Source: an uncultured Gemmatimonadales bacterium (GTDB lineage: Bacteria > Gemmatimonadota > Gemmatimonadetes > Longimicrobiales > Gaopeijiaceae). Taken from it: a stretch of DNA of 64,000 nt. Below, piece by piece: positions 54,366 through 64,000 of the stretch (the stretch's first letter is position 1; the number at the start of each line of letters is the position of its first letter). The position numbers and the translations under genes are program-made. Location: NCBI GenBank assembly GCA_937919655.1, contig CALFPJ010000020.1, positions 62,001 to 126,000 on the forward strand, given 5' to 3'. The notes beneath the pieces were generated by a model, which searched no databases, was not told where the DNA came from, and saw only the letters and a list, made by a program, of their open reading frames with translations.

Positions 54366-55430
54366 TTAGGACCTAGCGTTCCGAGACTCCATGCGAAAGC
54401 CACGCCCCACAAAACCCATCTCCACCGCGAGTTCGGCATTGGCGATGCAGGCACCGGCGGCACCTCGCACGGTAGTGTGCACGAGTATCGTCAGCGCCAA
54501 GCCATGCGGTGGTGATCTCCGGACCTGGGCCACGGTGACCGTCATGCCCCCACCCCGCCCGACGTCCAAACGTGGCTTTGGCCGATCGTCCTCGCGGCGT
54601 AGATACAGCGGCGCATCAGGCAGCGACGCCAACGATGCACATGGCTCCGGTCCACGAAACTTCTCCAGCTCCTCCTCGACCTCCTCGGGGTGGGCTGCGC
54701 GATCAAGGTCCAGAAACACATGCGCGACGTGACCATCCAACACCGGGACACGGTTCACGGCCACACTCCAAGTGGCCGTAATTCCAAGGATCCGATTCAG
54801 CTCAAGCGGGATCTTCTCGGCCTCCCCCTCGATGTGTGGGACGACGTTCCCCGACATGCAAACCGCGCTCGGACCATTGGCTCCGGCACCTGACATCGCC
54901 TGCAGGGTGACGATGACACCCCCCCTCACGCCCCACCTCTTCTGAATAGGAGCAAGTGCCAGGGCGAGACCAGCCACCACACAGTTGGGGTTCGCGATGA
55001 GCGCCCCCGCCTGTGCTCGCCAGGGCTGCTCTCGCACGAGCCGCATCATGCCGGGGTTCACCTCCGGCACAATGAGCGGCACGTCGGGCCGCATGCGGTG
55101 GGCGGACGCGTTCGTGCACACGACATGACCCGCCTCGACCAGAGCAAGCTCGACGGTCGCGGCCACATGACCCGGCAACGCGGAGAGCACCAGGGCCGAC
55201 CCAACTTCCTCACCCGCCCCCTTTAGCCGCATGTGTCGCAGAGAATCCGGCATCTCCTCCGGGAGCGCCCAGTCGGTTACCCCCCCATAGTCCGACTCCT
55301 CAGCCCGTGCCGAAGCGACGACCTCGGCGACCACGAGTCGGGGGTGCGACGCCAAGCGCTGCACGATGCGTTGGCCTACGAGCCCGGTGGCCCCCAGCAC
55401 GGCGACTGGAATACGGCGTCCGAAGGTCAT
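54366..55430 (-). CDS. asd: aspartate-semialdehyde dehydrogenase
   Basis: The 354-residue enzyme makes aspartate semialdehyde from aspartyl phosphate. It has the NADP loop VAVLGATGLVGQRIVQRL, the catalytic Cys in IANPNCVVAGLALALAPI, and a His/Glu-bearing LDGHVAHVFLDL. Its layout is closer to the archaeal/fungal-type Asd than to E. coli Asd. ATG 55430 overlaps the aspartate kinase stop (ATGA), so the two are coupled. Confidence 0.9.
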   Translation of the reverse strand: MTFGRRIPVAVLGATGLVGQRIVQRLASHPRLVVAEVVASARAEESDYGGVTDWALPEEMPDSLRHMRLKGAGEEVGSALVLSALPGHVAATVELALVEAGHVVCTNASAHRMRPDVPLIVPEVNPGMMRLVREQPWRAQAGALIANPNCVVAGLALALAPIQKRWGVRGGVIVTLQAMSGAGANGPSAVCMSGNVVPHIEGEAEKIPLELNRILGITATWSVAVNRVPVLDGHVAHVFLDLDRAAHPEEVEEELEKFRGPEPCASLASLPDAPLYLRREDDRPKPRLDVGRGGGMTVTVAQVRRSPPHGLALTILVHTTVRGAAGACIANAELAVEMGFVGRGFRMESRNARS

Positions 55431-56260
55431 GGGGTCACCTCGACGGCTAGCGGCGAGGCCTGGGTCGGCGTGACTGGGGCGGCCTGCGTCGTGGTGACCG
55501 GGGCGGCACGTTCGGCGCTTTGCCCCACGACTGTCCCGCGACCTCCCGGAGCCGCCACACGGAATACTATTCCGGCCGCCTCGGCAAAGAGCAGCGCCTT
55601 GTCCTAGACCACGCTGTTGCCGATCTCCCGCACCTGCCCCCACGTCGCGGAGGGCAACGGCAGCTGCCCGGGAAATCCCCGTTTGGGGTCGACCTCATAG
55701 ACCCCGTCCACGTCCTTGATGAGGCGCACTTCTTCCGCAGAAAGCGCATGCGCCAAATAGAGGGCCGTCAGGTCAGACCCTCCGCGCCCCAACAGCGCGG
55801 GTGCCCCAGAACGATCCCAGCCGACAAAACCTGGCACGACCACGACATCGTGCGCCTGAACGGCGTCGAGCAATCCCTCGATATCAAACCCGACGGGTTC
55901 GGCGTCATCGAGGGGCCCCGTTGTTTGTAGTCCGAGCGCGCGCGTCGCGAGACAATGGGCGTTCACGCCGCGCGCGGTAAGCGCGATCCCAAGGAGTGCG
56001 ACGGATGCGTCTTCGCCCGTCGCGAGAAGCTGAGCAGTGAGTCCCGCTGCAGCGCGCGGCGAAACGCAGCGTGCGACCTCCAAGAGTCGATTGGTCGTTT
56101 CGCCCATCGCGGATACCACCGCCACCACACGGCGGCCTGACGCGACTTCCAGCACGATCTCCTCCGCCGCAAACCGGAACCCTGCCTCGTCACCGAGAAC
56201 CGACGATCCGAACTTGAGCACGGCGACCCGATCTGCCTCGACACGACATGCGCCGGTCAC
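55427..56260 (-). pseudogene. lysC: aspartate kinase (catalytic domain) with in-frame TAG
   Basis: From GTG 56260 (or ATG 56272) the chain has the kinase motifs VLKFGSSVL, VVAVVSAMGETTNRLLE, PGFVGWDRSGAPALLGRGGSDLTA and IKDVDGVYEVDPK, then EIGNSVV and TAG (55604-55606). The frame continues unbroken (DKALLFAEAAGIVFRVAAPGG) to a stop that overlaps asd by ATGA. Related enzymes have Gln/His at the stop, so CAG to TAG fits. Beyond is an APVT-TTQ-rich tail and no ACT domain, so it would be feedback-insensitive. Expression depends on read-through. Confidence 0.8.
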
Positions 56261-57444
56261 ACGGGAGTACATGCGACCTCCTCGGCCTTGGTGAGCGCAT
56301 TCTGGAGGTCTGCGACCAGGTCATCTGCGTCCTCGATGCCGACGGACAGCCGCAGCAGGCCATCGTGTATTCCAGCGACACGTCGCCCCTCCTCGTCCAT
56401 GGACGCGTGTGTCATGGTCGTGGGATGGCTCACCAAACTCTCCACGCCGCCCAGTGACTCGGCCAGCGTGAACAGCCTCAGCTCGCGCAGAAACGCGTCG
56501 ACCGCCGGCCGCCCTCCGGCGAGTTCGAGGCTCACCAGGCTACCCCAGCCGCTCTGCTGCCGCGCAGCGATGTCGTGTCCACCGTGCGTCGCCAAGCTCG
56601 GGTGGTACAGACCCGTGACCGTGTCGTGCGTCGCCAGAACATCAACCACGCGCAGCGCGTTTCGCTCGTGTACCGCCGAGCGCGCGAAGAGGGTGCGTAG
56701 CCCCCTCAAGGCGAGATAAGCATCGAAAGGCGCACCGGCGACGCCCAGACAGTTCGTCCACCACGCAAGCTGATCGAGCAGTGCGGGGTCCTTCGCTATG
56801 ATCGCTCCAGCCACCACATCGCTGTGTCCATTGATGAACTTGGTGGCCGAGTGGACCACGAGGTCGGCCCCGAGTTCCAGTGGGAGCTGGTTGGCCGGCG
56901 ACAGGAACGTGTTGTCGACCACGCTGACGGCGCCGATGTCGCGCGCGAGATCCGTCCATCGGCGGATGTCGGTGATGCGCAGGAACGGATTGCTCGGCGT
57001 CTCGATCCAGATCACACGCGGGCGCCGGGCCCTCGCGATGTCGAGCGCCTGCTCGGAGGTCTGGTCGACGAAAACGGTTTCGTAGCCGACACGGCGGCCT
57101 TCTGCGGTGAACAGCCTGTAGCTGCCACCGTACCCGTCGTGAGGCGCGAGCAAAGTGTCGCCACACCCTAGGAGTTGAGTGACCACGGATATGGCAGCCA
57201 TGCCCGAGGCCGTGATGATCGCGCCGCAGCCACCCTCGAGATCCGCGAGCGCCTCCGCGAGATGGTCGCGCGTTGGATTTCCGGAGCGTGTGTAGTCGTA
57301 GCGTCCGCAAACGCCTGGAGACTCGAAGACGAAATTCGCAGATAGATACAGCGGTGGGACCACCGCTCTATGCGCCGTATCGGACCCGATCGCGGCCCGC
57401 ACGGCCCGCGTGGTCGACGTGGTCGCAGTGCCTTGGGCGCTCAT
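56257..57444 (-). CDS. Cys/Met-metabolism PLP enzyme (cystathionine gamma-synthase/sulfhydrylase type)
   Basis: The 395-residue protein from ATG 57444 has the family's YDYTRSGNPTRDHLAEAL, ASGMAAI, VVDNTFLSP and the PLP Lys in VVHSATKFINGHSDVV. With MetX it would put sulfur onto an activated homoserine: cystathionine gamma-synthase (MetB) or sulfhydrylase (MetY). The sequence alone does not separate these; the S-P-N-Q-x-P region and length favour the MetB side. It is coupled to metX by ATGA. Confidence 0.85.
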   Translation of the reverse strand: MSAQGTATTSTTRAVRAAIGSDTAHRAVVPPLYLSANFVFESPGVCGRYDYTRSGNPTRDHLAEALADLEGGCGAIITASGMAAISVVTQLLGCGDTLLAPHDGYGGSYRLFTAEGRRVGYETVFVDQTSEQALDIARARRPRVIWIETPSNPFLRITDIRRWTDLARDIGAVSVVDNTFLSPANQLPLELGADLVVHSATKFINGHSDVVAGAIIAKDPALLDQLAWWTNCLGVAGAPFDAYLALRGLRTLFARSAVHERNALRVVDVLATHDTVTGLYHPSLATHGGHDIAARQQSGWGSLVSLELAGGRPAVDAFLRELRLFTLAESLGGVESLVSHPTTMTHASMDEEGRRVAGIHDGLLRLSVGIEDADDLVADLQNALTKAEEVACTPV

Positions 57445-58496
57445 CGTGCCACCTCCGCGGACGCCGGAGTATCGGAGGAGGACGACCAACGGATCGCGAG
57501 CGCATCCGTGATGGCCGCGGACACGGGGCCAGGCTCCTTGAGGAAGGCGTCGTGACCAAACGGCGAACCGAGCCTGACGTGGCAAACGGGGCCGGGCAGA
57601 GCTTGGGCCAACTCTTCCACCAACCAAGTGGGTACCAGCCGATCCGTATCGAAGGAGACGAGCGAGGTGGGCGCCGTGACTTGAGACGGATCGACATCGT
57701 GCAGATCGATTGACTCAGAGAGACTGACGAACGCTTCGGTGCCGAACGTGGCGGCGAACGCGTCACCCCTCGCTGTGAGATAAGCCTCGACCGGAAAACG
57801 AGCGCCGCCGCCAACCTTAGGGCGAAAGTCGAAGCGCTCAGCGAATTCGAATTCCGAACGGTAGGTCGTCATGGCCAAAGCCCGTCCGAGGGAAAGGCCG
57901 CGCCGCTCATCGCCCACCTCGGCGCCGAAACGGACGATGTCTCGCTGGATCGCGCGCCAGGCAGTCGCCATGGGGTGCGGACGGTGCGCTGCGGCAACGA
58001 GCACGAGTGATATGACGTGTTTGGCGTCGAGGGCCGCCAGGGCGAGCGACACCATGCCGCCGTATGACGCGCCCACGAAGGAGGCCCGGCGCACGCCGAG
58101 AACACTCAATACCTGACGGACAACCTCAGCCTGATCCCTCGAGGAGATGCGCGTGCCCGCCGGTACGGCGGCCTGCGGCCCGCCGAGGAAGTCGATGCCA
58201 ATCAGACGCTGGCGCGTGGGGTCGAGCGCCAGGCCTGCACCCACGACGCCAGGCCACCATCCGGGCGAGGGATCGCCTGCCGTGGGCGCCAAATGACGCG
58301 ACGCAGAGATTCCCCCGAGAACTACGACCGCCGGGCCGTACGCTGGCCCGTGAACCTCGTAGCCGACACGTGTGTCGACATGACCGCCGAATTGGAGATC
58401 GACGGAAACTGTGGTGTGGCCCGTAACGCCCGGAGAGGTGCCGGTGCAGCAAAACGCCTCGACGTGTGCCGGGGCCGCTGCGGAAAGTTGGGTCAT
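57441..58496 (-). CDS. metX: homoserine O-acyltransferase MetX
   Basis: ATG 58496, with GGAG six bases upstream, gives a 351-residue alpha/beta-hydrolase acyltransferase: VVVLGGISASRHL, the nucleophile in GASYGGMVSLAL, the acid in FDTDRLVP and His in GHDAFLKEP. GGISA is typical of MetX; whether acetyl or succinyl is used cannot be read with confidence. Two earlier ATGs (58508, 58592) lie inside the riboswitch hairpin or lead. It is first in the operon metX-metB/Y-ask-asd. Confidence 0.9.
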   Translation of the reverse strand: MTQLSAAAPAHVEAFCCTGTSPGVTGHTTVSVDLQFGGHVDTRVGYEVHGPAYGPAVVVLGGISASRHLAPTAGDPSPGWWPGVVGAGLALDPTRQRLIGIDFLGGPQAAVPAGTRISSRDQAEVVRQVLSVLGVRRASFVGASYGGMVSLALAALDAKHVISLVLVAAAHRPHPMATAWRAIQRDIVRFGAEVGDERRGLSLGRALAMTTYRSEFEFAERFDFRPKVGGGARFPVEAYLTARGDAFAATFGTEAFVSLSESIDLHDVDPSQVTAPTSLVSFDTDRLVPTWLVEELAQALPGPVCHVRLGSPFGHDAFLKEPGPVSAAITDALAIRWSSSSDTPASAEVAR

Positions 58497-58497
58497 G

Positions 58498-58541
58498 CGA
58501 TTCTCCATAAGATTGGCCCACAACGGACCCCTGGAGAATCG
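58498..58541 (-). promoter_or_regulatory. ribosome-binding-site-sequestering hairpin of the metX leader
   Basis: CGATTCTCC (mRNA 58541-58533) pairs exactly with GGAGAATCG (58506-58498), which contains the metX Shine-Dalgarno GGAG (58503-58506). This is a 9-bp stem between the SAM riboswitch and the start codon, so the switch probably acts at translation. Confidence 0.6.
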
Positions 58542-58587
58542 ATCGCCCCTATACAATACGGCATCCACACAAACGTGCGGCGGGCGA

Positions 58588-58700
58588 CTCATCTCTCGAT
58601 GGACTTACGTCCATCGCAGGAGTTGGCACCTTGCGGAATTGCCACATTCCGTAGGTTGCCCCGGCGTCTAAGGGCCTATCCCTCAGCCGGTCTCGATGAG
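58588..58700 (-). promoter_or_regulatory. SAM-I (S-box) riboswitch upstream of metX
   Basis: Read 58700 to 58588, the RNA has P1 arms CTCATC/GATGAG, the kink-turn/SAM core GAGGGATAGGCCC, CCGGGGCAACC, a CGGAAT/ATTCCG P3 hairpin, AAGGTGCCAACTCC, and a P4 hairpin GATGGAC-GTAA-GTCCATC. These are the conserved SAM-I blocks in order. It senses SAM and would lower MetX and the downstream genes when SAM is high. Confidence 0.93.
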
Positions 58701-58744: not shown

Positions 58745-58833
58745 CGGGGGCGTTGATTTAGCGCCCGGGTCTTGAGCGACGGTCACGATTGTGGCACCGT
58801 ATCGACACCGATCCTCGTTTCTGGGAATTGAGC

Positions 58834-59280
58834 GTGAGCCAGGACTGCCCCATCGATCACGAAGCCGCCGAACGCGTCGCGGAGCGACTCCCTGGGCCAG
58901 TGCGTCGTGGCATGTACTTCTCAATTGGGGCGGTGAGCGTCGTGGCCGGAGTCATTGGCATCTTCGTGCCCCTCTGGCCGACCACCTGCTTCCTACTGTT
59001 GGCAGGCTGGTGCTTCGCCCGCAGTTCGCCTCGCGCCGAGCGGTGGCTGCACGAGAATCGGCTCTTTGGTCGTTACCTCGCGGACTACCGTGAGCGGGGC
59101 ATCGTCTCACCGCGGGCGCGGCTAACCTCGGTCATCACGTTGTGGGTATTTATTGGGGTTTCGGCATTTATGCTGGGGAGCCGTGTGTGGGTCGTGGCGC
59201 TCCTCCTGCTCGTCGCAGGGGCCGTGACGGCCCATCTTTATTCGCTCCCCACTGAAGCGACGGACGAGTCAGCGGCCTAG
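58834..59280 (+). CDS. DUF454 (YbaN-like) inner-membrane protein
   Basis: The ~148-residue protein has the DUF454 pattern: a first helix (FSIGAVSVVAGVIGIFVPLWPTTCFLLLAGWCFARSS region), HENRLFGRYLADYRERGIVS and two C-terminal helices. Function unknown. GTG 58834 is preferred; TTG 58789 would add 15 residues. It is divergent from metX and its end overlaps the CPBP gene by 12 bases. Confidence 0.8.
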   Translation: MSQDCPIDHEAAERVAERLPGPVRRGMYFSIGAVSVVAGVIGIFVPLWPTTCFLLLAGWCFARSSPRAERWLHENRLFGRYLADYRERGIVSPRARLTSVITLWVFIGVSAFMLGSRVWVVALLLLVAGAVTAHLYSLPTEATDESAA

Positions 59281-62200
59281 AGCCGAAATCTCTGGACGGC
59301 CGAGTTCTTTCGACCAACGCCACGCGAGCCCCGCGATCACCATGATCGCCAAAAGTTGGCCAGGGGTACTGCCTGGGTACGCGCCCGCGAGCAGCGCCTC
59401 CACGGCACTGAGCACCATCATCGTGCCGAAGATCATGGGTGCCAGGGCCGGGCGGTTGCCGATCAGCCGTGTCAAAGCCCACATCCCGGCAGCGGCCACA
59501 AACGCGCTAGCGACCCAGATGACCGGCGAATCTTGCAACGCGGATGGCACCAGCACCGCGCCCAACGCCACAATCGCAAAGCCGGTGACGCTACCCAGGA
59601 ACGGGTGCCCTCGGAACCGCTGTGTCGCAACCGCCAGCAGGAGCATTGCCCCGGTAAGAAACAGTAGTGGGACGACGGCACCAAGAGGCGCGGAGAGTGT
59701 GGGGACGAGTTCTCCCGCCGCGCTGTAGTCCGGAAGCCCAGGGACCCCACCCGACAGTTCGCCAACGAGGCTACCCGCCCCCGCGATCAGAAGCCCGATC
59801 GACGGACCAACTAGGATGGAAGTGGCGACTCGGCTGCGAGCCTGCGCCCATGAATGCCCGAGCGCGATCACGAGACCGATAGCGGCCCCGCCGATGAGGG
59901 CCACCAGGAGCAGCCCGAATGCTGCCCCGCCGGCCTGAAAGCCGAATGGCTGGGCAGTAGAGAACACCGCAATGGTCGCGGGCCAAGCGTTTGCAGTGGA
60001 AAGCGCCAACGCGGTACAGCCGACGGCTGAGCCGATCCAGAGCGGGCGGGTCTCGAGACCCCGTCGACTCCACACCACAATCGCGACCACTGCGCCAACA
60101 CCAAACATGAGGATCAGCACGAAGATGAGCCCCAGTGAAATCACAGATCGTCGGCTGGCCGCCTCTCGTTGCGCCCGAGCCCACTCCTCCGGCACGTGCA
60201 CGAAGCGGCGAACGTTGCCGACCTCGTTACCGCTCACCGTGATCGACGCCCGCCCCTCGCCGGCTACTTCTGTGAGTACGGACGGATCCCGGAAGGTGAA
60301 GTCCCAATCGGTCCGGCTCTCGTGAGCAGACTCCTCGGCACTGACTTCTTCCCAGCTGCCGGGCGGGAGCGCACGACGGGCCAGTTCCCTTGCCGAGGCT
60401 TCGTCCAGAACCGCGCCCGCCCTTCCCTCAGGCAACTGATGGACTGCGCGCCGGACCGTGCCATCGACCGAGATGTTCACGAGGAACTCCTCCACCCGCT
60501 CCTCTGGGGAGGCATTCCAATCAACGAAACGCACGATCCACTGTGGCGGCGGCAAGAACTCCCCGAACAACGCCTGATACTCCTCCTCTCCCGCTTCCTC
60601 GAACACGTATTCGTGCCCACTTGAAACCCCGTCGTCCGTAAACGCAGAAGGGGTCCATCCGTCCAAGGCGAAGCCCCGCTCTAGGACCCGGGCCTGGGCG
60701 ATCTCCACGGCCTCGCCGCGCGTGACACCCAGCCTCGGCGGTGCTTCGCCCATCAGGAGAGTCCCGACCCAAAGAGCGAAGCCCACAGCGCCAGCCGCGC
60801 CAAACACGCCCACCGAGAACGGCAGGCGCGTCGCGGCTTCAGGTGCGACATCCGTGGCGACACCCCCAGGTTCATTCGCCAACTCACCCCCCGCATGGCT
60901 CCGGCGCAGCCCTGTGGACAGACCCGATGGTGGGTCAATCGAGTCACCGCTTGATTCCTCTTCGGACGCACGCGTCGGCGCGCTCACAGCAGCCGGAAGC
61001 GGAGGCGCCGACCAGGCCCGGTTGAACGACCACTCAGGTGAGGTGCTCGTGCCACGTCCGCCTCGGCGTGCCCACAACACCACGAGCAAGGGGATCGCGG
61101 CCACACCGACGATCACACCCTGGTCGATCATCGCATCTGAGGCGAACAAGACGCTCGAAATCAGGGCCAGGTCGTACAGGAAGTGCGCGAGAATCGTGGG
61201 GACGAGGCCGAAAAATACGTATACCGCCCCCCAGGCGAATGCCGGAATCGACAGTTCCACCACCCGCGCGTAGGCCGGCTGCTGGGGATAGTTGGCGTGC
61301 CCCGCCGCGAACACGACCGCCTGAAAGGCGACCATACCCCAAACCCACATGTTCCTGCGCCCGTAGCGCGCCCCGATCAGAGCCGCACAGGCGAGCGGAA
61401 CTGCCCGGAAGATGCTCTCCTCCCACAACGCGGCGAACAGCGACGTCGAAACGGCCTGTAGCCAGGGGAAATACGTCGCGAGCAGATCCGGCTGAACCAG
61501 GGCATCGGCCGGGGACCACCAACCCTCCAGTCGTGAAGTGCCCATGTAGAAGAGCACCACATATCCCACCTGGAGACCCACAAAGAGGTACGCGCCAACC
61601 GTGATGCCGAGCGCTGAATTGGAAGCGGCCACCTCCGGTGACCAAAAGCGCCACTGCTGCAGGTGGTCAGGAAACGCCTTTCGGCCCAACGACTCTCCGG
61701 CCAGGAAGAAGAAGGCCAGAATCGGAGCGCCAAGAATCGCGATCGCTCCTGCGCTGGCGATGTTCTGGAAGATGAAGAGGTTCGCCGATACCGCAGTGTC
61801 GTAGGACATCCACGAGAGCGGCAGCGCGTTGATGGCGTTCAATCCGAAGAGCGTCGCGGTCACCGCGCCCCAAGCGAGCGCGGTCCGCCACTCGATCCAG
61901 CGCTTTCTGAGCAGAAGCGCGCTTCCGACCCCAGCACCTAGGAGCACATACAGCAGTAAAAATATCGACTGCGAAACCAGCGCAATCGAGTCGTTCGTGG
62001 ATCGCATATCCGCGTAACGTCGCGAGAATGCCTCGGGCACGAATACAAAATGGGTAAGCTGCGAGAGTCGATTCCCCGAAACGACGAGCCTGAGCCTGAA
62101 GCGCGCATCGGCTAACGTGATGTCGCCTCGTTCGTAGACGAACGTGTGGTCGACCCGCCCGCCTGGGAGGGTCTCACTCGACGACTCGACTAGGTCGTAC

Positions 62201-62694
62201 GGGGTCAGGTCGAGCGGCCAGGCAGCCACGGCCTGCGCGGCCGCGAACTGCGCTTCTGGAGGCGTCAGGTTGCCGGGGCCCGCATCGTCCTCGGCGAGAC
62301 GGAGTCGAAAGCCGTAGGGGGTACCGGCAGGGGAGAAGCTGACCGAGGTCTCCTCGACCTCACCCTCCGCAAAACGCCTCACCCGCCATTGATACGGTTC
62401 ATACACTCCCACATCCATGAGGCCCTGGAAGGCATCACGCCCGCCGCCTTCCAACTCGACATAGGTCTGGACTTCTGAATCGACCTGCCCGAACGACGCC
62501 GCGGAACGGGCGTCTTCCGGTCCCCAGCCCAAACGATCGGCGAGGGCTGCCGCCTCGGCCATGGCCGCTTCTCGGTCCATCGTGATGTCTACCGAAACGT
62601 TCGGCAGCGCGACCGTAAAGAGCTGGAGCGCTGTGACCGCGCCAGCCAGGCCAAGGGCGCCCAGAACGATCCAAAAAATGGGGCGGCGCGTCAT
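59269..62694 (-). CDS. large CPBP-type membrane protease, internally duplicated
   Basis: The 1141-residue protein has two similar halves. Each has a periplasmic PepSY-like region (RRFAEGEVEET..., VSGNRLSQLTHFVFVPE; and VRFVDWN..., VSGNEVGNVRRFVHVPE), followed by many helices. In the first half a CPBP (CAAX-protease-like) motif is seen: LWEESIFRAVPLA (EExxxR) with FAAGHANY. The second half lacks those Glu, Arg and His, so it is degenerate. A Pro/Ser-rich linker (~580-640) separates them. It might cleave in the membrane; the substrate is unknown. Confidence 0.75.
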   Translation of the reverse strand: MTRRPIFWIVLGALGLAGAVTALQLFTVALPNVSVDITMDREAAMAEAAALADRLGWGPEDARSAASFGQVDSEVQTYVELEGGGRDAFQGLMDVGVYEPYQWRVRRFAEGEVEETSVSFSPAGTPYGFRLRLAEDDAGPGNLTPPEAQFAAAQAVAAWPLDLTPYDLVESSSETLPGGRVDHTFVYERGDITLADARFRLRLVVSGNRLSQLTHFVFVPEAFSRRYADMRSTNDSIALVSQSIFLLLYVLLGAGVGSALLLRKRWIEWRTALAWGAVTATLFGLNAINALPLSWMSYDTAVSANLFIFQNIASAGAIAILGAPILAFFFLAGESLGRKAFPDHLQQWRFWSPEVAASNSALGITVGAYLFVGLQVGYVVLFYMGTSRLEGWWSPADALVQPDLLATYFPWLQAVSTSLFAALWEESIFRAVPLACAALIGARYGRRNMWVWGMVAFQAVVFAAGHANYPQQPAYARVVELSIPAFAWGAVYVFFGLVPTILAHFLYDLALISSVLFASDAMIDQGVIVGVAAIPLLVVLWARRGGRGTSTSPEWSFNRAWSAPPLPAAVSAPTRASEEESSGDSIDPPSGLSTGLRRSHAGGELANEPGGVATDVAPEAATRLPFSVGVFGAAGAVGFALWVGTLLMGEAPPRLGVTRGEAVEIAQARVLERGFALDGWTPSAFTDDGVSSGHEYVFEEAGEEEYQALFGEFLPPPQWIVRFVDWNASPEERVEEFLVNISVDGTVRRAVHQLPEGRAGAVLDEASARELARRALPPGSWEEVSAEESAHESRTDWDFTFRDPSVLTEVAGEGRASITVSGNEVGNVRRFVHVPEEWARAQREAASRRSVISLGLIFVLILMFGVGAVVAIVVWSRRGLETRPLWIGSAVGCTALALSTANAWPATIAVFSTAQPFGFQAGGAAFGLLLVALIGGAAIGLVIALGHSWAQARSRVATSILVGPSIGLLIAGAGSLVGELSGGVPGLPDYSAAGELVPTLSAPLGAVVPLLFLTGAMLLLAVATQRFRGHPFLGSVTGFAIVALGAVLVPSALQDSPVIWVASAFVAAAGMWALTRLIGNRPALAPMIFGTMMVLSAVEALLAGAYPGSTPGQLLAIMVIAGLAWRWSKELGRPEISALGR

Positions 62695-62813: not shown

Positions 62814-64000
62814 ATGACTCTCATGAAGCCCTCTACTTCGACCTGGACGATTGTCCTCGCCGCCGCTCTACTCACCGCTTGTGGCGGGACGGGGGCCGAC
62901 CCGGAAATGCCGACGCCTCAGGGCGCGAGTGGAGACCGACCGTCAGCGCGCGCAGGTCGTGGCGCGGGTTCCAATGCCGACGAGAAGAGCTACGCCGAGT
63001 TGATCGAAGACGCCGCCAGCGACGACGGCCTCTTCACGGTGCACGCCAAAGAGGGTGACTACTTCTTCGAGATCCCAGATTCCCTGCTGAATCGGGATAT
63101 GTTGCTGGTCAGCCGCGTCTCTGGGAAACAAGACGGCCTGGGAGGCTTCTCTCCCGCAGGTGTGGCATCGAATCGCCAGATGGTGCGCTTCGAACGACGC
63201 GACGATCGCATCTTGTTGCGGAAGTATTCAGGAGAAGCGGTCGCGGACGACACCCTAGCCATCGCGCTCTCGGTCCAGGCGAACTACTTCGCGCCCATCC
63301 TGGCTTCGTGGGACATCGCGGCACGTGGAACAGACAGCACCACGTCCGTTGTCGACGTCACCGATTTCTTCGGTGGAGACACGCCCGCGATCTCTGGTCT
63401 CAGCCCTGCCCAGCGACGCACCTATCAGGTCCGGCGTCTGGACGCGAGCAGGAGCTTCATCGGCCAGGTCCGCAGCTACCCGCTCAACGTTAACGTGCGC
63501 CACACGCTCACCTACGACGCCGGCGCACCTCCATCTGACGAGCGCGCCAGCACGATCTCGCTCGAGATGAACCAGTCCTTGATGCTCCTCCCCAAAGAGC
63601 CGATGCGGGCGCGCTACGCTGACGCCCGCGTAGGCTTCAACAGCATCGAACGCATCAACTACGGGCTCGACGAACAAAAGGCCGAGACCGAGACCTTCAT
63701 TCGTCGATGGAGGCTCGAGCCGTCCGACCCGCAGGCCTACGCCCGCGGCGAGGTGGTGGACCCGGTGCAGCCGATCACCTACTACATCGATCCTGCGACG
63801 CCGGCGCGGTACGTGGAAACGGTTCGCCGCGGCGTTGAGAACTGGCAGGTCGCGTTTGAGACTGCGGGCTTCAGCAACGCGATCGTGGCGCTCGACCCGC
63901 CCTCGCGGGACGAGGATCCCGACTGGGACCCCGAAGACGTGCGCTACTCGGTGGTGCGTTGGTCCGCGAGCATGACCCGGAACGCTCAGGGGCCGAGCAC
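62814..64000 (+). CDS. zinc-dependent metalloprotease-like protein (DUF5117/5118 type), 3' end outside window
   Basis: The frame from ATG 62814 (or 62823) stays open to the window end, 395 codons. It has a lipoprotein signal (ALLTACG), then SYAELIEDAASDDGLFTVHAK, then LLNRDMLLVSRVSG and SWDIAARG-type blocks, VRSYPLNVNVRHTLTY, and ITYYIDPATPARYVETVRRGVENWQVAFE, as in the DUF5118-DUF5117 N-terminal region of secreted metalloproteases. The HExxH site would lie beyond the window. Function is inferred from architecture. Confidence 0.82.
   Translation, partial: MTLMKPSTSTWTIVLAAALLTACGGTGADPEMPTPQGASGDRPSARAGRGAGSNADEKSYAELIEDAASDDGLFTVHAKEGDYFFEIPDSLLNRDMLLVSRVSGKQDGLGGFSPAGVASNRQMVRFERRDDRILLRKYSGEAVADDTLAIALSVQANYFAPILASWDIAARGTDSTTSVVDVTDFFGGDTPAISGLSPAQRRTYQVRRLDASRSFIGQVRSYPLNVNVRHTLTYDAGAPPSDERASTISLEMNQSLMLLPKEPMRARYADARVGFNSIERINYGLDEQKAETETFIRRWRLEPSDPQAYARGEVVDPVQPITYYIDPATPARYVETVRRGVENWQVAFETAGFSNAIVALDPPSRDEDPDWDPEDVRYSVVRWSASMTRNAQGPS

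Follow-up and report, generated by a model that had tools for sequence, protein, structure and literature searches.

Prokaryotic CPBP proteases are described as widespread and largely unexplored (PMC11980579). Glutamic intramembrane proteases of the CPBP/Rce1 type (PF02517), for example MmRce1 and MrtX, are characterized by an EExxxR motif, a second-helix histidine, and an HxxxN/D motif (PMC11980579, PMC6588880). The same elements are found in the first half, A, of a protein, P0001, from an uncultured Gemmatimonadales bacterium (Gaopeijiaceae; GCA_937919655.1). Its gene is located in a stretch of 64,000 nucleotides (the window), positions 62,001-126,000 of the forward strand of contig CALFPJ010000020.1. 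MrtX has 239 amino acids (PMC11980579), whereas P0001 has 1141 and is laid out as two 10-helix units with two large periplasmic domains. The second half, B, does not carry the catalytic motifs. This tandem of a CPBP unit with active motifs and an inactive one is real and conserved.

Other CPBP-type membrane proteins are reported to act by protein contact. Abx1 (PMC3578759) and SpdC (PMC5854430), both CPBP/Abi-domain proteins, control histidine kinases through membrane contacts, and SpdC self-associates through its helices (PMC5854430). Both are separate proteins that act in trans, SpdC with 8 predicted helices (PMC5854430), whereas the dead unit of P0001 is fused to a catalytic unit. The iRhom pseudoproteases are likewise described as regulatory proteins that are related to intramembrane proteases and inactive. 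iRhoms belong to the rhomboid superfamily, not to CPBP, and are separate polypeptides, and APH-1 serves another type of protease. APH-1 is a CPBP-related membrane unit within the gamma-secretase complex and is reported to retain a QExxR motif and histidines (PMC6588880), whereas B retains no aligned catalytic residue and is joined to its own paralogue. In the open-access literature, no paper that describes a tandem of active and inactive CPBP units was found by title or start of abstract. Such a fused pair keeps in one chain a partnership that is usually guessed between separate proteins, which makes the role of the pseudoprotease accessible to tests with separate halves and point mutants.

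Layout and conservation of the tandem protein

The gene for P0001 (59269..62694) is a single open reading frame (ORF) with an ATG start. It and all of the features within it are on the minus strand. Half A (residues 1-555, 61030..62694) was assigned by a Pfam match, family profiles, and motif counts, and half B (residues ~612-1141, 59272..60861) by family profiles, a tree, and motif counts. PF02517 (Rce1-like) matches P0001 once, at residues 410-509 (E 8.5e-9; 36 bits, cut-off 22.4 bits), and the gene is one of 4 PF02517 places in the host genome. None of the NCBIfam families, sorting CPBPs included, matches P0001 at E 1.

A total of 395 genomes drawn from the phylum Gemmatimonadota were searched with P0001, and 60 of them gave matches. 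Doubles in one open frame were found in 44 genomes, including G308, in which the frame leaves the contig near the end of B. A further 5 doubles (G029, G032, G112, G285, and G360) are split or truncated at contig ends, and 8 genomes have catalytic single-copy proteins, the open frames of which are 558-628 codons long. G130 and G206, which are cut at contig ends and have no visible B half, were placed with neither group, and the marginal match of G148 (E 4.7e-4, residues 410-516 only) was also left out of both. The 47 doubles analysed are the 44 from the phylum survey and 3 from named records. The homologue search proposed in the original prediction thus returned both single and double forms, and the fusion of a dead copy to one with intact catalytic motifs is conserved across many genomes.

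The two halves of P0001 can be aligned directly. Residues 1-560 matched residues 561-1141 by blastp (43.9 bits, E 1e-8, 28% identity, 235 columns) and by phmmer (E 4e-11). When the 47 A halves were compared with the 47 B halves by hhalign, the probability was 99.9 (E 2e-33) over 304 columns, which cover the periplasmic domain and transmembrane helices (TM) 1-4. The periplasmic parts alone align at E 4e-24. The membrane parts align at E 4e-9, with the local match limited to the first helices, and the catalytic-core regions alone have no direct alignment (E 0.08). Over roughly the first two thirds of their length, A and B are copies. The original prediction that P0001 is built from two copies is confirmed, with direct alignment for the periplasmic domain and TM1-TM4 and not for the catalytic-core regions alone. 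It had also given both periplasmic domains the same ending, VSGNxLxxLxxFVxVPE. This is exact in A (VSGNRLSQLTHFVFVPE); B reads VSGNEVGNVRRFVHVPE, with V at both of the quoted L positions.

Both halves fit a 10-helix layout. K and R are enriched in the loops that are expected to be inside, and each loop is on the same side in A and B; the helix limits were placed by eye from family-mean hydropathy. The periplasmic domain of A (residues 27-236, 61987..62616) is in the loop between TM1 and TM2, as indicated by its alignment to the B counterpart and by loop charges. It is followed by TM2-TM10 (residues 237-542, 61069..61986), for which alternation of K+R was also used and the border between TM8 and TM9 is arbitrary. 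A linker that is predicted to be cytoplasmic (residues 543-626, 60817..61068) varies in length across the family. In B, the periplasmic domain (residues 649-850, 60145..60750) was placed by profile alignment to A and by loop charges. It precedes TM2-TM4 (residues 851-945, 59860..60144), which are homologous to those of A.

The original prediction also placed EExxFR and the histidine motif in the first half only, and this is borne out. EESIFR (residues 425-430, 61405..61422), FxxxH (residues 462-466, 61297..61311), and HxxxD (residues 504-508, 61171..61185) are confined to A. E425, E426, F429, R430, F462, H466, and H504 are each invariant in 47/47 A halves, and position 508 is occupied by D in 30 and by N in 17. 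These catalytic residues are also invariant in all 8 single-copy relatives. EExxxR was found in none of the membrane parts of the 47 B halves. A stray [FWY]xxxH is present in 9/47 B halves and HxxxD in 1/47, in different sequences and never together, and the catalytic columns hold other residues in an alignment with 25 B rows. No B half was matched significantly by a core profile of A and the single-copy proteins (best E 0.068). By its motifs and its PF02517 score, A appears to be of the CPBP type, and proteolytic activity is predicted for it. Active-site chemistry in A is indicated because the catalytic residues are invariant in A and in the single-copy proteins and lost in the duplicate.

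A tree of 58 rows (25 A, 25 B, and 8 single-copy) was built on the periplasmic domain and TM1-TM4, with 25 of the 47 doubles as representatives and no root inferred. A, B, and the single-copy proteins each form one clade with 100% bootstrap support. A and B each divide into the same two large subclades, and together with the three clades this points to one old duplication. A single duplication with fusion and a single loss of catalysis, in B, would explain the tree. The ancestor was probably a protein of 10 helices whose first loop held a periplasmic domain, as in the single-copy relatives. It would have been duplicated and fused once, early in the Gemmatimonadota, and the downstream copy would then have lost its catalytic residues.

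Kinase fusions and the possible role of half B

The dead module is also found behind Ser/Thr kinases. In G213, a 933-codon frame on the minus strand (L128, 4764-7562) encodes a kinase domain (PF00069, E 7e-44) followed by the periplasmic and membrane module. In G128, a protein of 868 amino acids (L130, 1498-4104, minus strand; kinase E 2e-36) has the same layout. A third fusion, in G119 (L142, 423-2778, minus strand), has a frame break that separates the periplasmic part from the helices. Every catalytic column is changed in the G213 module. The catalytic columns are also changed in the G128 module, which is 29% identical to it, and the two modules align to the single-copy family over 512 columns (E 8.5e-37). 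A profile of both found 15 of the 395 genomes: the 3 kinase fusions, 8 single-copy proteins, and 4 doubles. The three carriers of kinase fusions represent three genera of one family.

These fusions hint independently that the module serves as an input domain. A kinase bound to the membrane requires some input, for which a dead CPBP unit with a domain outside of the membrane would be a natural candidate. The original prediction proposed that a pseudo-enzyme half fused to an active half could sense a periplasmic signal. This idea is indirectly supported, since the same kind of module, devoid of catalytic residues, is attached to Ser/Thr kinases elsewhere in the Gemmatimonadota, and sensing is plausible by analogy. 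The support does not extend to a ligand, to control of A by B, or to cleavage by A. It is possible, but doubtful for now, that the periplasmic domain and the dead CPBP unit together are a protease-derived receptor module in Gemmatimonadota, which is connected in some proteins to an active paralogue within one chain and in others to a cytoplasmic Ser/Thr kinase. If so, intramembrane proteolysis and kinase signalling would use one kind of sensor.

For P0001 itself, the reading that is favored, at about even chances, is a single-chain CPBP pseudo-dimer in which A is a predicted intramembrane protease and B is a built-in pseudoprotease regulator. A would cleave a membrane-embedded substrate as a glutamic intramembrane protease, and B would regulate A. 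The two periplasmic domains could sense or bind something outside of the inner membrane and relay this to A through the helices, by gating or by presentation of the substrate. Regulation of the live half by the dead half is suggested because the arrangement is kept in many Gemmatimonadota. A regulatory role of B can be proposed by analogy with the dead modules on kinases, which are its main support, and with Abx1 and SpdC. The self-association of SpdC, the sole support for this point, suggests that the ancestor may have acted as a homodimer.

Several results weigh against this reading. Kinase fusions are rare (3/395 genomes), and the best tree groups the kinase modules with the single-copy proteins (100/99) and not with B. 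A grouping of B with the kinase modules was not rejected by the approximately unbiased test (p 0.237), and L130 is a long branch. The last six helices of B have no direct match to a CPBP core, in profile comparison (the E of 0.08) or in the core search (the E of 0.068). AlphaFold models of the A and B halves, with 12 relatives each, were poor (mean predicted local distance difference test score 43.9 for A and 57.2 for B). With these models, Foldseek gave no match at E 0.001 or better, and no Rce1 entry was among the 50 matches listed for A or B. The Foldseek matches resembled noise and were dropped as evidence. No substrate or ligand was found, and automatic clustering of ORFs at 70 loci gave no widely conserved neighbour.

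It is also conceivable, but rather unlikely, that B, instead of sensing, acts as a scaffold or substrate dock that positions a partner or substrate for A. SpdC, a homologue of CAAX proteases, is reported to scaffold the hydrolase SagB in such a manner (PMC10581084). B also evolves faster than A, as a partner-binding surface might. The ratio of nonsynonymous to synonymous substitution rates (dN/dS) is 0.18-0.375 for B and 0.085-0.167 for A in the 14 lowest-divergence of 476 pairs, with B above A in 14/14; these pairs are not independent, because near-identical relatives recur and sequences are shared. However, no candidate partner gene recurs near the 70 loci beyond one closely related group, to which the recurring neighbour clusters are limited save a few in 3 loci. 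A partner could possibly be encoded elsewhere.

Ancestry and constraint of the B half

The segment of B in which the catalytic core would have been lost is TM5-TM10 and the tail (residues 946-1141, 59272..59859). Two B subfamilies, of 25 and 22 sequences, align there at E 6e-9 over 177 columns. They are clearly related in this segment, and it is thus a conserved region of B. Its relation to the CPBP core was explored with permuted controls. Against the A profile, the real column order of the B core scored above 36/36 permuted controls, narrowly (266.0 against 265.7 for the best control), and against the single-copy and combined profiles it scored above 34/36 each. The kinase-fused relatives could serve as a bridge to the C-terminal part of B. 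In six of nine profile pairs, no control attains the real score. In the best of these (E 2e-5, 176 columns), 0/32 controls attain it, and the best control falls just short (37.5 against 37.7). In the other three pairs, 6/28, 10/28, and 1/32 controls attain it. A B-half profile of 23 rows matches A halves collinearly, and at least position 538 of 553 is attained in 21/44. In B halves, the match to the single-copy profile (577 positions) breaks off between positions 345 and 405, except in one case, in which it extends to 452. Together, the sequence evidence for a CPBP ancestry of TM5-TM10 is suggestive and not conclusive, and it is probable but not certain that the last six helices of B represent a degenerate CPBP core.

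The alternative, which seems unlikely, is that only the periplasmic domain and TM1-TM4 were duplicated and that helices 5-10 of B were recruited from elsewhere. It could account for the missing direct alignment of the core regions, for the early end of the single-copy profile, and for the control comparisons that fail. However, the helix number is equal in the two halves and every loop is on the same side, the B profile runs collinearly to near the end of A, and the kinase-fused relatives give a weak bridge to the C-terminal part of B.

Even less probable is a role in which the whole protein is non-proteolytic, as a membrane regulator that is independent of catalysis or as another enzyme with the CPBP fold. 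Abx1 is reported to remain functional when its catalytic residues are replaced (PMC3578759), which is also a point against the favored regulated protease; since these residues are dispensable there, the intact motifs of A are no proof of proteolysis. In addition, LnsB, a CPBP-fold protein, is reported as part of a two-component acyltransferase with LnsA (PMC7387801). However, the catalytic residues are kept in every A half and every single-copy relative and lost in the duplicate, which points to active-site chemistry in A.

Purifying selection acts on both halves and is relaxed on B, which is constrained to a lesser degree than A. That B is a decaying leftover without function is very improbable, and its conservation has largely refuted this already. 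Identity to one set of 12 relatives is lower for B (38-41%) than for A (62-69%). However, in 44 genomes, which belong to two old subfamilies, B shares an open frame with A; invariant residues are present in its family, and dN/dS of the whole half is 0.18-0.375. For the C-terminal part of B alone, dN/dS ranges from 0.06 to 0.98 in the same 14 pairs. The value of 0.98 belongs to the closest pair, which has few changes, and counts against a regulator under constraint.

Wider searches and gene neighbourhood

When the 395 genomes were searched with a B profile, no lone B half was listed; the weaker matches were A halves, the 8 single-copy proteins, and one paralogue. A search with the single-copy profile found distant, motif-intact single-copy relatives (L124, L125, L126, and L127, with EELGYR, H, and HLTxD) in G128, G196, G206, and G235, alongside a double or cut double. 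Outside of the Gemmatimonadota, one scan of genome contigs, plasmids, and viral contigs were covered. Among 13 loci in named contig records, the titles are Gemmatimonadetes or Gemmatimonadota, one BD2-11 clade bacterium, and, for 4/13, Gammaproteobacteria; these four appear to be misnamed. Plasmids gave no match to P0001 and one to a single-copy relative, in the core region only, and viral contigs gave no match. A search of the sequences of solved structures found nothing for P0001. The single-copy profile had one weak match and the periplasmic profile seven (best E 0.013), to proteins that were taken as unrelated.

The periplasmic domain of P0001 does not match PF16244, the repeated domain of YcdB/YcdC, and a search of the host genome with PF16244 found none. 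A weak resemblance was found in 4/31 periplasmic pieces (best E 7e-4, below the curated cut-off) and in 4/8 single-copy proteins (best E 4e-4, one at 20.4 bits against a cut-off of 27). When 10 pieces were scanned individually, 1/10 gave a resemblance (E 0.11). The domain may be akin to PepSY domains.

Other genes are present around P0001 in the window. Adjacent genes at 54366-58592 on the minus strand match a semialdehyde dehydrogenase, an amino acid kinase, a Cys/Met PLP enzyme, and an alpha/beta hydrolase, a set that is presumably that of a methionine pathway. A gene for a DUF454 membrane protein (58789-59280, plus strand) is convergent with the CPBP gene and overlaps its end by 12 bases. 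On the other side, a divergent ORF of 836 amino acids begins at 62814 on the plus strand (62814-64000) and continues beyond the window. It contains HEIGHAIGLPHN, which is taken here to be a zinc-metalloprotease-like motif. An ORF related to it also adjoins the CPBP gene in G001, a genome of the same genus.

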